Assembly (NCBI GenBank): GCA_944325555.1
Contig: CALVAN010000021.1
Coordinates: forward strand, 1-34,527
Length of the DNA: 34,527 bases
From: Candidatus Gastranaerophilales bacterium
GTDB taxonomy: Bacteria > Cyanobacteriota > Vampirovibrionia > Gastranaerophilales > Gastranaerophilaceae
Direction of reading: 5' to 3'
Shown: positions 1,257 to 16,800 of the stretch, in pieces
Layout of the letters: the number at the start of each line of letters is the position of its first letter
How positions within the stretch are numbered: the first letter of the stretch is position 1
The notes under the pieces: model-generated
What the model was told of the DNA's origin: nothing
The model's database searches: none
What the model saw: only the letters and a program-made list of their open reading frames with translations
Translations under genes and position numbers: made by a program

Positions 1257-2324
1257 ATGTTAATAGAAGAATTATTGGAAGATGCTGTCGGGCAAGGTGC
1301 CAGCGATATTCATATTTCAGCTAACCTGCCGCCGGTTTTTCGTATAGACGGTAAATTAATCAGAACAAACCATGAGATGTTAACAGCAGAAAATGTGGAA
1401 ACTCTCATATTCCCTATATTGAACAATGAACAAAGAAGAAAGCTCGAGCAGGATTGGGAGCTTGACCTTTCTTACGGTATTCACGGTTTGGGTAGATTCC
1501 GTGTTAACGTTTATAAAAACAACAACACTTACGCAGCTGCCTTCAGAACCATTAACACCGTATGCCCGACTTTTGAATCTTTGGGCTTGCCTCCGATTGT
1601 AAGAAAGATTACGGAAAGACCAAGAGGCTTGATTCTTGTAACAGGGCCTACAGGTTCCGGTAAATCTACGACACTTGCTTCAATGATTGACTATATCAAT
1701 GAAAACAGAAACGAACACATCTTGACAATCGAAGACCCTGTCGAATTTGTGCACAAATCAAAACAAAGTGTTGTTCACCAGAGAGAGCTCGGACAGGATA
1801 CAAGATCTTTTGCCAACGCTCTTAAATCAGCACTTCGTGAAGACCCTGATATCATTCTGGTAGGTGAGTTGCGTGACCTTGAAACAATTTCACTTGCGAT
1901 TACAGCCGCAGAAACAGGCCACTTGGTAATGGGTACACTCCACACCTCGTCTGCCAGCCAGACTATCGACCGTATTATTGACGTATTCCCGCAAGGGCAG
2001 CAGCAGCAGATTCGTATCATGTTGTCTAACTCACTTTGTGCGGTATTTTCACAAACACTTCTGCCTAAATTGACTGAAACAGGCGAAAAGAAAGGTCGTG
2101 TAATGGCATTGGAGGTTATGGTTGTTAACGGTGCGATTGCCAACCTTATTCGTGAAGGTAAAACTTCTCAAATGTATTCAGCAATCCAAACCGGTGCGCA
2201 GCACGGTATGCAGACTTTGGAAACTTCACTGGCTAACTTGTATAAGAAAAATCTTGTTTCGGCTGAAGATGCGCTTGCAAAAACAAGCCGTCCCGATGAA
2301 TTGAGAAGACTTATTAATCTATAA
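1257..2324 (+). CDS. pilT: Type IV pilus retraction ATPase PilT
   Basis: A hexameric cytosolic motor that depolymerises type IV pili for twitching or DNA uptake. It has 355 residues, typical for PilT. Visible parts: an N-terminal PAS-like domain (ASDIHISANLPPVFRIDG, about 15-32), Walker A GPTGSGKST (130-138), Asp box TIEDPVEF (157-164), Walker B DPDIILVGELRD (196-207), His box GHLVMGTLHT (221-230), and the PilT-specific C-terminal signature seen as AIANLIREGKTSQMYSAIQT. TAGGAG sits at a good distance upstream of the ATG. It stands alone here, without pilB, pilC or pilM-Q, and ends at a strong terminator. A paralogue lies at 15685-16800. Confidence 0.93.
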   Translation: MLIEELLEDAVGQGASDIHISANLPPVFRIDGKLIRTNHEMLTAENVETLIFPILNNEQRRKLEQDWELDLSYGIHGLGRFRVNVYKNNNTYAAAFRTINTVCPTFESLGLPPIVRKITERPRGLILVTGPTGSGKSTTLASMIDYINENRNEHILTIEDPVEFVHKSKQSVVHQRELGQDTRSFANALKSALREDPDIILVGELRDLETISLAITAAETGHLVMGTLHTSSASQTIDRIIDVFPQGQQQQIRIMLSNSLCAVFSQTLLPKLTETGEKKGRVMALEVMVVNGAIANLIREGKTSQMYSAIQTGAQHGMQTLETSLANLYKKNLVSAEDALAKTSRPDELRRLINL

Positions 2325-12041: not shown

Positions 12042-12452
12042 TTAATTTTTTTGTGTTTTATCAGTTTTATTTTTAATCAAAGGATTTTTCTTTTTTTGTT
12101 TGTTCGTCTGGGCAGGCTCCTGTGGTTTGTTAATTATAACAAGCACCTCGTCTTCACCTGCCATTTTCAGGTTGTTTCTTGCAATAGCTTCAAGGCTTTT
12201 TGTAGAATTAAAATCTTCAAGTTCTTCTTTTAATCTCTGGTTTTCAACATAAGCTTGTTCGTTCAGGGCTTTCATTTTTTTTATTTTTCCGTGATAGCTT
12301 ATACTTTTTGTAATGTTGTTAAAAGCACTGAAACCTATTTGAACAAGGCAAACCAGCAGAACTATTGTGAGGAAAGAATAATAAAAACGGATTTTATTCT
12401 TTCTTTTGTTATTTTTTGCCTGAGTCTTTTCTATTAAATCAGGTTTGTTCAT
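12042..12452 (-). CDS. FtsB/DivIC-family septum formation protein
   Basis: Bitopic division protein that links early divisome proteins to septal peptidoglycan synthesis through the FtsQLB (DivIB-DivIC-FtsL) complex. It has 136 residues: a basic cytosolic N-terminus (to about 22), one membrane segment (about 24-44), a coiled coil (about 55-82, KMKALNEQAYVENQRLKEEL), then LEAIARNNLKMAGEDEVLVI, the usual end motif of the family. A Lys/Gln-rich tail (about 110-136) is an extension beyond E. coli FtsB. The ribosome site is weak (GGGG 7 bases before ATG). It is close to, but not in, the mur operon. Confidence 0.8.
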   Translation of the reverse strand: MNKPDLIEKTQAKNNKRKNKIRFYYSFLTIVLLVCLVQIGFSAFNNITKSISYHGKIKKMKALNEQAYVENQRLKEELEDFNSTKSLEAIARNNLKMAGEDEVLVIINKPQEPAQTNKQKKKNPLIKNKTDKTQKN

Positions 12453-12602: not shown

Positions 12603-12634
12603 TATAATAAACAAGCTAAATATAAGGAAGTAAA

Positions 12635-13525
12635 ATGTTTGATTTATCTATTCTTTTGAATCCGATTATTCTCGCAATAATTGTCTGTTTTATCGGTGTT
12701 GTTCTGTACTTTGTGATGAAAGTAAACTATATCAATACATCGTTAAACGGGCTTACAGATGTATTAAGAAGTTTCAGAAAAGGAAATATTGTTTACAGGT
12801 TCAAAGAACTTGATGATATGTTTTTAAAAAATCCTTTTATCTCAAATTACTGGGTTGAGTTTAAAAATACACTTGTTTTTAATGAAGGAATTTCTCTCAA
12901 GGGTTCTCCGGTTGAAAATTCGTCCATCCAGTGTACGGTTGATTCTTCTTACTTTTTTAATGAAGAAACACTTATTAACAGCAAACTCAACTACAAATTT
13001 ATATCAGCAGTACCTACAATCCTAACAGGCTTAGGCCCTTTATTTACCTTTATGCATATTGCGATTGCTTTTTCAAAAGTAAATTTTGCCACGCAGGAAG
13101 CAACCATTGCTTCTGTATCTTCATTACTGGCTTCAATGAAAGTTGCGGCAATGATTTCCGTTGTTGCTGTAGGTACGTCCATACTGTTTATGGTTATAGA
13201 ACGAATTTTGTATAAAAACATGTGCAAAACTCCGTTGAGTGCTTTTCAACTGGAGATGAACAAGCTTTTTGATACAATTACGTCCGAAAAATTTCTTGTT
13301 GAACTTTTAAGGGAATCTAAACTGCAAAACAGTGTTATAAACCAGACTTTTACAACTATGCCTTTGCAATTGAAGGCTGCTTTCGATAAGAGTTTTAAGG
13401 AAACTCTTGTTCCTTATCTTGATAACCTGATATTTTCTGTTAACAAATTGCAGGATAATATTAAGAGCAGTGCATCAAAGGGACTATTAGACGATTTATT
13501 CGGCAATAATGACGACGATGAGTAA
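12635..13525 (+). CDS. ZorA/MotA/TolQ/ExbB-like proton channel subunit
   Basis: Predicted ring-forming stator subunit of a proton-driven membrane motor. It has 296 residues with three membrane segments (about 6-28, 122-147, 167-193). NYKFISAVPTILTGLGPLFT before and in the second segment, and the Ser-rich LLASMKVAAMISVVAVGTSI stretch leading into the third, match the MotA/TolQ/ExbB core as I know it from ZorA proteins. The last 100 residues are helical and acidic at the end (GNNDDDE). ZorA of Zorya defence systems usually carries a much longer cytosolic tail, so this is a short form. The OmpA/MotB-like partner starts 6 bases downstream. No zorC, zorD or zorE lies beside it. It could equally be a housekeeping energy-transfer module of the TolQ kind. 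Confidence 0.75.
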   Translation: MFDLSILLNPIILAIIVCFIGVVLYFVMKVNYINTSLNGLTDVLRSFRKGNIVYRFKELDDMFLKNPFISNYWVEFKNTLVFNEGISLKGSPVENSSIQCTVDSSYFFNEETLINSKLNYKFISAVPTILTGLGPLFTFMHIAIAFSKVNFATQEATIASVSSLLASMKVAAMISVVAVGTSILFMVIERILYKNMCKTPLSAFQLEMNKLFDTITSEKFLVELLRESKLQNSVINQTFTTMPLQLKAAFDKSFKETLVPYLDNLIFSVNKLQDNIKSSASKGLLDDLFGNNDDDE

Positions 13526-13531
13526 CGGATT

Positions 13532-14230
13532 ATGAAATATATTAAATACAAAACAGATGCACAAAGCGGCGGCGATGATAATGTTTTTTGGGTTACGATG
13601 AGTGACCTCTTGCTGGGTCTTGTTGTCGTTTTCCTTGTTTTATTTGTGTTTGCAATAACCGGCTATACTCAGTCAAAAGTTTCCGAACAGGAAAAACGCT
13701 ATGAGGTTACGGAAAAAATAGCCGAAGAGCTTAAAAAGAATAATATTAACGTTGATGCTGACAAATTTTCGGGCAGAATAAAAATTTCTGATCTGGAGCT
13801 GTTTGAACTCAACAGCTGGGAATTATCTTCAAAAGGCAAAGAGTATATGTCAAAGTTTGTTCCGGTATATTTGAATGCCGTATTAAAAGATCCCAAAGTG
13901 AGAAAAAATATCACCCAGATTGTAATTGAAGGTCACACCGATTCCCAGACTTTTGCAGGTGCTAAATCAGAGGAAGAAAAGTATTACAGAAATATGGACT
14001 TAAGCTTGAAACGTGCATCAAGTGTTGCCAAATACATTATCTTTTCTGATTTTGAAGGTAAAAAAGAATATCAAAAAGATTTGTTTAAAATAATTTCAGT
14101 AGAAGGCAAAGGACCATCTAATCCTGTTATTGTTAACGGAAAAGAGGACTATGCAAAAAGCAGACGTGTAGAGCTGCAGGTTGTCTTTAAAGAAAACTTT
14201 ATGCTGGGCAAAGACAAATCAGCACAATAG
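13532..14230 (+). CDS. ZorB/MotB-like OmpA-domain protein
   Basis: Partner of the channel subunit just upstream. It has 232 residues: a short cytosolic N-terminus, one membrane segment (about 26-45) that follows the conserved Asp of WVTMSDLLLGL (D25, the expected proton carrier), a short linker helix (about 48-70), and a C-terminal OmpA/MotB peptidoglycan-binding domain with IVIEGHTDS, LSLKRASSVAKYI and KSRRVELQV. Unlike TolR or ExbD it has the peptidoglycan-binding fold, so the pair resembles MotAB and ZorAB. The gene ends 14 bases from the convergent deoC stop. Confidence 0.8.
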   Translation: MKYIKYKTDAQSGGDDNVFWVTMSDLLLGLVVVFLVLFVFAITGYTQSKVSEQEKRYEVTEKIAEELKKNNINVDADKFSGRIKISDLELFELNSWELSSKGKEYMSKFVPVYLNAVLKDPKVRKNITQIVIEGHTDSQTFAGAKSEEEKYYRNMDLSLKRASSVAKYIIFSDFEGKKEYQKDLFKIISVEGKGPSNPVIVNGKEDYAKSRRVELQVVFKENFMLGKDKSAQ

Positions 14231-14244
14231 GCGTTATTTTATCT

Positions 14245-14895
14245 TTATTGTGCAACGATTGCGACTCCGGAGCTTGTTCCTAATCTGTCAGCTCCTGCTT
14301 CTATCAAAGCAAGTGCCTTTTCCCTGTCACGGATTCCGCCCGATGCTTTAACACCGAGTCCGTGTGGCTTAACCGTTTCCGCCATAAGTTTTACATCGTC
14401 AACTTTTGCGCCAACGCCGTTTTTAACAAAACCGGTAGATGTTTTCACAAAATTTGCCTTAGCTTCAATACAAAGTTCACAGGCCTTTTTGATTTCTTCT
14501 TTAGTTAAAAGGTCGGTTTCTAATATAACTTTTAAAATGTTATCACCGCAAGATTTTTTAACGGTTGAAATATCCTCTTTTATGTAGTCATAGTCTTTGT
14601 CTTTGAGCTTTGATACGTTAATAACCATATCAATTTCATCAGCACCGTCTTGAACAGCTTTTTGTGCTTCAAATGCTTTAACCTCTGGAAGGCTTGCCCC
14701 GAGAGGAAAACCGACTACAGTAACCACCTTTACATCGGTATCTTTCAGATACTTTTTAGCTGCTGCAACGTTAAAGGGGTTTACGCATACCCCTTTGAAA
14801 TTATATGTTTTTGCTTCTTCAAGGAGCTTTTCAAGGTCCTGCTTGGTTGCATCCTGTTTTAAAAGTGTATGCTCTATATAGTTATTTAATTCCAT
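14245..14895 (-). CDS. deoC: Deoxyribose-phosphate aldolase
   Basis: Class I aldolase that splits 2-deoxyribose-5-phosphate to acetaldehyde and glyceraldehyde-3-phosphate in deoxynucleoside catabolism. It has 216 residues, the short form common outside enterobacteria. Seen: EHTLLKQDAT, GFPLGA (62-67), DEIDMVIN with D89, FVKTSTGF with the Schiff-base Lys K151, and VKASGGIRD with K183. It is the last gene of the pilT2-recO-deoC operon, 13 bases after recO, with an AAGGA ribosome site. Confidence 0.95.
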   Translation of the reverse strand: MELNNYIEHTLLKQDATKQDLEKLLEEAKTYNFKGVCVNPFNVAAAKKYLKDTDVKVVTVVGFPLGASLPEVKAFEAQKAVQDGADEIDMVINVSKLKDKDYDYIKEDISTVKKSCGDNILKVILETDLLTKEEIKKACELCIEAKANFVKTSTGFVKNGVGAKVDDVKLMAETVKPHGLGVKASGGIRDREKALALIEAGADRLGTSSGVAIVAQ

Positions 14896-15684: not shown

Positions 15685-16800
15685 TTAGAACTGGATATCA
15701 AATTTATCCACAGTACCGTGGTAAGCGCCTCTAAGCATTTGTTCAATCTCAACTTTATTGTCGCTGGATTCGATAGCAACATCTTTAGAGATTAAATCCT
15801 CTTTAATAAGCTGGAACAAGGACATGTTCATCGTAATCATGTCGTTGTAAGAACCTTTTTTAACAAGGTCGTAAATTTGTTCAAGCTCGTCTTTGATAAT
15901 AAAGTCTTTGATAGTAGGTGTAACCACCATAATCTCACAAGCAGGAATACGACCGTGACCGCTTTTGAGCGGTATAAGTTTTTGTGCAACACAGGCTTTG
16001 AGTGTTTCTGCAAGTTGTTTTCTTACACCTTCTCTGTCTTTTGGCTCAAACATGCCGACTATTCTGTTGACGGTTTGGATAGCATCGTTTGTGTGCAGAG
16101 ATGCAATAACAAGGTGACCTGTTTCTGCAGCCTTCATTGCGCTGGAGAGTGTTTCCAAATCTCTGATTTCGCCGATGAGTATAACATCGGGGTCTTGTCT
16201 TAATGCATATTTTACGCCGTCAGGGAAGGACAGAGTATCTATTTCGACCTGTCTTTGCGTAATAATACAGTTTTTGTTTGAATAAATAAACTCAATAGGG
16301 TCTTCGATTGTGATAATATGTTTGCGTTCGTTTTTGTTAATAAGGTCAATTAAAGACGCAATTGTTGTTGATTTACCACTACCGGTTGGACCTGTAACCA
16401 GTACGATACCGCTGTTAAACTTTGAAAACATGTTCAACGCAGGCGGCAGCCTTAACTGTTGAAATGTCGGTATTTCATAAGGAATGATTCTGAATACAAG
16501 AGATGTGTTGCCCATCTGGCGGGCGAGGTTGATTCTGAATCTTGAAATGCCTTTAATTTCATAAGAAAAGTCTAAATCAAAAGCAGATTGGACCTTTGTC
16601 CTCAAGTATTTAGGCAATACAATATTTAAAACATGCGATATATCCTTTTCCTTAATAACAGGATAGTTTGTTTTTACTATTTTGCCGTCTTTTCTTACTA
16701 CGGGAACTTCATCTATGCGCAGGTGCACGTCTGATACCTGCTCTGCCACTGCTTTTTTCAAGAATCCGTTTATATCAAATATTACTTCAGGTTTATCCAC
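15685..16800 (-). CDS. PilT-like type IV pilus ATPase, second copy
   Basis: Paralogue of the PilT at 1257. It has 371 residues from a GTG start with a GAGGAG ribosome site. Seen: ASD-type N-terminal domain (QVSDVHLRIDEVPVV), Walker A GPTGSGKST (137-145), TIEDPIEF (164-171), Walker B DPDVILIGEIRD (203-214), GHLVIASLHT (228-237). The PilT end signature is altered to TIKDFIIKDELEQIYDLVKK, so it is closer to an accessory retraction ATPase (PilU-like) or a divergent PilT. First gene of the operon with recO and deoC. Specific role uncertain. Confidence 0.85.
   Translation of the reverse strand: MDKPEVIFDINGFLKKAVAEQVSDVHLRIDEVPVVRKDGKIVKTNYPVIKEKDISHVLNIVLPKYLRTKVQSAFDLDFSYEIKGISRFRINLARQMGNTSLVFRIIPYEIPTFQQLRLPPALNMFSKFNSGIVLVTGPTGSGKSTTIASLIDLINKNERKHIITIEDPIEFIYSNKNCIITQRQVEIDTLSFPDGVKYALRQDPDVILIGEIRDLETLSSAMKAAETGHLVIASLHTNDAIQTVNRIVGMFEPKDREGVRKQLAETLKACVAQKLIPLKSGHGRIPACEIMVVTPTIKDFIIKDELEQIYDLVKKGSYNDMITMNMSLFQLIKEDLISKDVAIESSDNKVEIEQMLRGAYHGTVDKFDIQF

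Follow-up and report, generated by a model that had tools for sequence, protein, structure and literature searches.

The motor proteins ZorA and ZorB have so far been described only within Zorya defense, and a locus in Candidatus Gastranaerophilales (Melainabacteria) that encodes a ZorAB-like pair with no Zorya effectors beside it raises the question of what such a motor does for its host. We analyzed this pair in the window, that is, the whole 34,527-nucleotide stretch of contig CALVAN010000021.1, together with its homologs in 192 genomes of the order that were at least 85% complete; a spurious match in G195 (E 4e-5) was removed from the carrier count. The original prediction had read the locus as a ZorA/ZorB-like motor pair that stands alone, lacking the effectors of Zorya, and had left three readings side by side, namely a different ion-driven machine, a housekeeping envelope motor, or a defense system with distant or unknown effectors. 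Our results agree with the first description, and among the three readings they favor a housekeeping-type, lineage-core motor outside defense. In the openly available literature mentioning ZorAB that our search reached, no such short stand-alone pair is described. The features of the locus are as follows.

12042..12452, minus strand: FtsB/DivIC-like gene, divergent neighbor (PF04977, 1.3e-8)
12623..12634, plus strand: ribosome-binding-site-like aaggaagtaaa directly 5' of the A start codon (read from the sequence)
12635..13525, plus strand: A subunit, short ZorA-like channel protein, 296 aa (profile, fold, and ORF evidence)
13238..13525, plus strand: tail of A, residues ~202-296 (model and conservation)
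13532..14230, plus strand: B subunit, ZorB-like, 232 aa (profile, fold, and residue conservation)
14245..14895, minus strand: deoC-like aldolase gene, convergent neighbor, ordinary (sequence profile)

A ZorAB-type motor by profile, residue, and predicted fold

Both open reading frames are intact and lie where they had been placed by the original prediction, 6 bases apart on the plus strand, with a good ribosome-binding site preceding the A start codon. The FtsB-like gene foreseen on the other side was likewise recovered, and the adjacent window genes of the pair are FtsB-like, deoC, recO, and pilT. Across 117 loci, the pair was intact in 116, and A and B were adjacent on the same strand in 116, far beyond chance. 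Two PilT-like ATPase genes (window 1257-2324 and 15685-16800) lie on opposite strands with about 13 kb between them.

Sequence and predicted fold clearly make the pair a member of the ZorAB branch among 5:2 motors. The proposed profile search returned ZorA1 (3.7e-27) and ZorB1 (1.2e-53) as the best PADLOC profiles for A and B, with no MotAB or TolQR best match, while the NCBIfam scores lay far under their cut-offs (86 of 750 bits for ZorA1 and 68 of 400 bits for ZorB1). A had been described as a channel protein of the MotA/TolQ/ExbB type with three membrane segments; the three helices were borne out, but the general MotA_ExbB profile missed A in our profile search, and it is the ZorA profiles that recognize it. 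Strong sequence matches of A in the PDB were confined to ZorA chains, and B matched ZorB best, followed by MotB-type OmpA domains. Modeled as a single chain from a profile (mean pLDDT 76), A shows three membrane helices, two cytoplasmic helices with a strand pair, and a two-helix tail. Its helices span residues 10-45 (membrane part ~10-30), 120-147, and 154-211, the latter two being long, and its cytoplasmic strand pair (80-82/98-100) is of the Zorya type; a strand pair at that place was called unique to Zorya-type proteins in a 2025 stator study (PMC12505986). Foldseek with the A model placed ZorA first (1.4e-10) and TolQ second (0.03), and the VIA-align Z was ~17 for ZorA, ~10 for TolQ/ExbB, and at most 8 for PomA/MotA. 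For the B model (mean pLDDT 81), ZorB of types I and II were the first fold matches. B has the anticipated architecture, with a single membrane helix bearing the proton-carrying D25 and an OmpA domain (PF00691, 3.1e-11; peptidoglycan-binding region ~91-217).

Residue conservation followed the same direction. Loss of D25, the counterpart of ZorB2 D24, was looked for in orthologs and was seen in none of the 39 homologs, and H135, R161, R211, and R212 of B were each present in 39/39, with L157 also invariant. The pore-ring residues T138 and S175 of A, which align with T147 and S184 of ZorA1, were found in 37/37. According to the Zorya study PMC11890865, ZorB D24 and the His, Leu, and Arg residues of the peptidoglycan site are required for defense, and mutations at the wall site of ZorB break peptidoglycan binding. 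The position of ZorB2 S143 is occupied by D137 in B, and that of R230 is not conserved. With the calcium-site residues of ZorA taken as E86 and E89 from the title of entry 8qyh, the E86 counterpart (E75) is mostly kept and the E89 counterpart is mostly Asn (N78). Profiles, fold, and tree all place the pair closer to ZorA/ZorB than to MotAB, TolQR, or ExbBD.

A short tail ending in a conserved motif

The tail of A had been estimated at about 100 residues in place of the long ZorA tail, and in our model it covers ~90 residues in two helices. Complete A proteins of the 117 loci measure 292-348 aa (one copy truncated by its contig is shorter), compared with 455-773 aa for the long ZorA proteins examined. 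The tail runs from an invariant PYL (260-262) through a linker of variable length to a conserved DDLF (286-289) and, in the window genus, GNNDDDE. A D[acidic]LF-type motif occurs within the last 20 residues, at or near the C-terminus, in 101 of the 117 A proteins; among the 1422 other proteins encoded at these loci, 2 contain the slightly different pattern D[DEKNQ]LF. Measured against close relatives, dN/dS of the tail by itself was 0.02-0.045 where unsaturated, and residues beyond 236 gave no separate structure match. This constraint and the conserved end motif would fit a docking peptide on a tether. Because the model confidence of the tail is low (pLDDT 36-68), the docking idea draws on the conservation of the sequence. 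PMC11890865 reports that the ZorA tail extension is necessary for Zorya defense.

Distribution, inheritance, and selection

The pair was detected in 140 of the 192 genomes, and its carriers belong to Gastranaerophilaceae and a few sister families. By hand count, it is fixed by genus: 23 genera carry it (140 of their 141 sampled genomes), and the other 20 do not (0 of 51 genomes). Its absence from 20 of the 43 sampled genera means that the order can do without it, a point against the core-motor reading. A second, less complete sample gave no match in 4 of 23 genomes of the window genus, three of which were below 90% completeness. Beyond the order, the search gave nothing closer than weak matches to long-tailed ZorA. 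The distances among A and among B proteins tracked those of RpoB (Spearman 0.58 and 0.65, respectively) and each other (0.79), and none of 2000 permutations reached values as high. Fixation at the genus level and the tracking of RpoB point to vertical inheritance of a core pair, unlike the strain-level patchiness of defense genes. Defense genes can also be kept vertically, a consideration that counts against reading the pair as a core motor. No copies of the pair were present in the viral contigs searched, and the plasmids searched held long-tailed ZorA of annotated Zorya systems only, with no short form. Relative to close relatives, dN/dS was 0.02-0.08 for A and 0.01-0.07 for B; the pair is under very strong purifying selection, tail included.

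The short A proteins formed one clade (100/98), which the best tree nested with the ZorA of G068, a distant relative, and proteobacterial ZorA1. An alternative topology in which the short clade is sister to all Zorya ZorA was not rejected (AU p 0.288). The B tree also contained one short clade (97/98) of unresolved placement. These trees fit either of two origins for the short pair: a defense motor recruited to a core role, or descent of the short pair and the defense motor from a common ancestor. A large stator phylogeny had excluded ZorAB as too remote (PMC12505986).

Missing effectors and changing neighborhoods

The predicted absence of ZorC, ZorD, and ZorE held in all but one genome of the order for ZorC and beside the motor for the other two. 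The ZorC domain (EH_Signature) was missing from 191 of the 192 genomes, the host included, and the sole exception, G068, encodes a complete Zorya I system (L070:663-7869, A-B-C-D, ZorA 542 aa) adjoining type I restriction genes, with its own short pair at a separate place. Next to the motor, ZorC and ZorD were not found and the neighbors were housekeeping genes; ZorE and ZorF/ZorG were not found among the adjacent window genes or 107 neighbors. ZorAB alone is reported to be insufficient for defense (PMC8565338), and every Zorya gene is reported to be required for it (PMC11890865). Among the characters of Zorya, the pair has the ZorA/ZorB core and lacks the long tail, adjacency to ZorC/ZorD, ZorE, or ZorF/ZorG, and a patchy mobile distribution. 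Given its short tail, missing effectors, and genus-fixed distribution, the pair is most probably not a Zorya defense system.

In cyanobacterial Zorya I loci, a conserved gene of 113-128 aa with the motif NHAWKxA lies directly before zorA (L162:8112-8489, L161, L163, L164, L167, L169, and L203:1474-1824). Its product, which had no Pfam or PADLOC match in the one case tested, could be an unrecognized Zorya component, and ZorD is frequently non-adjacent in those loci.

The comparison of ortholog neighborhoods, which had been suggested as a way of separating a core function from defense, showed that neighbors change between genera but are housekeeping genes, with families such as DUF711, SecA, and starch synthase. 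No defense family recurred among 107 neighboring proteins from 30 loci, and no nuclease or helicase recurred beside the orthologs. Mobile and defense genes also show changing neighborhoods, which weighs against the core-motor reading. FtsB, SecA, UvrC, and a DSHCT-helicase were considered as conserved neighbors, and each proved clade-specific; the ftsB-like gene adjoins the pair here and in close relatives and is not conserved as a neighbor across the family. In the window genus, the pair comes after a mur/mraY/ftsW/murG cluster and the ftsB-like gene, which is inverted after murG in the window and some close relatives compared with other members of the genus (L079).

Downstream of the pair, many non-flagellated genera have DUF711 together with a family of 110-170 aa proteins in one or two copies (L047:6273-7981 and similar loci), and the first downstream gene nearly overlaps B. 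This 110-aa family was rejected as a required partner because it is absent from the window genus and occurs in genera without the pair. The oldest neighbor is a 1106-1285 aa protein carrying double zinc ribbons, to which one member adds weak matches of AAA and TPR-like type. Its gene is divergent and directly upstream of the pair in about ten genera and one gene further in another, spanning three families (L054:2981-6508, L055:4407-7907, L045, L046, L051, L052, L063, L066, and L068), and is missing from the window locus. C-terminal peptides of acidic-hydrophobic character can be ligands of TPR domains, and the zinc-ribbon protein is a first candidate for DDLF docking, offered as a lead only.

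Flagellar and envelope motors of the host

The host encodes FliG, one ExbB-ExbD-ExbD set, and two MotAB sets, one of which adjoins genes judged by eye to be FliM/FliN-like from the starts of their sequences. In a hand count over the 192 genomes, 39 had the pair and FliG, 101 the pair only, 32 FliG only, and 20 neither; a flagellar stator was rejected, since the distribution of the pair is independent of FliG. In most carriers without flagella, a single MotA_ExbB gene is present. OmpA domains in the host genome are limited to the two MotB proteins and B, which indicates that Pal is absent, and each genome of genus g9 has one OmpA-domain match, consistent with B alone. The host lineage is diderm, with SomA/SomB-type porins (PMC4040986). 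In some non-flagellated genera, an OmpA-domain protein of ~180 aa is encoded beside the gene for a 404-aa protein (L158:2692-3225 and L159:2631-3182); it is a Pal-like candidate that is not present in the window genus.

Discussion

We propose, at a probability of roughly 0.6, that the pair is a vertically inherited, wall-anchored core ion motor and that its five short tails serve as docking sites for a cytoplasmic protein whose gene lies elsewhere. Homology, fold, conservation, purifying selection, distribution, and the lack of effectors are observed; the stoichiometry, ion flow, rotation, docking, and cellular role are inferred, as follows. By homology, B would grip the cell wall through its OmpA domain and plug a pentamer of A in a 5:2 complex, and ions would cross via D25 of B and the T138/S175 ring of A, turning A around B. 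The long ZorA rod, which signals to ZorC/ZorD or ZorE, would be replaced by a short tail of helices followed by a flexible linker, whose acidic-hydrophobic D-D-L-F end, present in five copies per motor, would engage the cytoplasmic partner. The output may be envelope force or the signaling of envelope state in cells without Pal.

Other readings deserve weighing against this core motor. A divergent anti-phage system, in which the short ZorAB would respond to disturbance of the wall by an infecting phage and switch on effectors from other parts of the genome, is suggested by the restriction of known ZorAB to Zorya, by ZorA1/ZorB1 as the closest profiles, by the position of the short clade within or next to Zorya ZorA in the tree, and by a context that differs between genera. 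We consider it unlikely, as the long tail and each Zorya gene are needed according to PMC11890865, whereas the pair is genus-fixed rather than patchy, has neither ZorC nor recurrent defense neighbors, shows no plasmid or phage copies of its short form, evolves at a dN/dS near 0.02, and coexists in G068 with a true Zorya I system encoded apart from it. Decay of an old Zorya system would account for the short tail and the missing effectors, but a remnant is highly improbable for a pair that is intact in 116 of 117 loci, has acquired a new conserved C-terminal motif, and is held by purifying selection, tail included, at dN/dS values that contradict decay.

An envelope motor that stands in for the missing Tol-Pal system, coupling ion flow to constriction of the wall and outer membrane at division, would suit a diderm lineage (PMC4040986) whose host lacks Pal, the position after cell-wall genes in the window genus, and the single OmpA-domain match per g9 genome. 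It seems as unlikely as the divergent defense system: no TolA-, TolB-, or Pal-like gene was seen among the neighboring genes examined, TolR lacks the OmpA domain that B carries, the cell-wall neighborhood is not conserved beyond the window genus, and pair-less genera are in part also without Pal-like proteins (g68 and g26). Slightly less probable again is that ZorAB motors have been put to a third use, in which a domesticated motor would transduce wall tension and, by way of its five DDLF docking peptides, pass the signal to a cytoplasmic protein dedicated to it; the zinc-ribbon protein with its weak AAA/TPR-like matches would be the best candidate receiver, and if so, the defense motor and the core motor would be two outcomes of one ancestor. 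An auxiliary stator of the flagellum or another surface-motility machine is improbable: membership in the same motor superfamily and a window genome with FliG and two MotAB sets speak for it, but 101 carriers lack FliG, 32 FliG genomes lack the pair, and A has no MotA-type fold match, so that a non-flagellar motility machine is the form in which it could still hold.

A short, effector-free, vertically inherited pair found throughout a family of gut bacteria related to cyanobacteria would extend ZorAB to a core cellular use and offers a minimal motor for asking what ZorAB detects and transmits and what is gained by the long defense tail. A caution for annotation is that matches to ZorA/ZorB profiles by themselves are no proof of phage defense.

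Among known systems, Zorya I ZorAB (E. coli, 8qyd; Shewanella ANA-3, 8vvn) shares the A fold, including the cytoplasmic strands, the pore residues (T147/S184, here T138/S175), and the proton-carrying Asp and OmpA domain of B; the pair differs in having no long tail rod and no ZorC/ZorD, in its genus-fixed distribution, in the new C-terminal DDLF, and in one altered calcium-site Glu of two (E89 to N78). By profile and fold, B is equally near the ZorB of Zorya II (Sulfuricurvum kujiense, 8vvi) and that of type I, yet ZorE is missing from the pair, and ZorA2, although shorter N-terminally, is long-tailed (550 aa in E. coli). TolQR-TolA-Pal works on a similar principle, as an ion motor linked to the wall whose A subunit has three helices, and the host lacks Pal, but the fold match is much weaker (Z ~10), B is of the OmpA type, and neither TolA nor TolB was found among the neighbors examined. 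MotAB/PomAB, also ion-driven with an OmpA-domain B subunit, gives the weakest fold match of the superfamily (Z at most 8) and differs from the pair, whose distribution does not depend on FliG.
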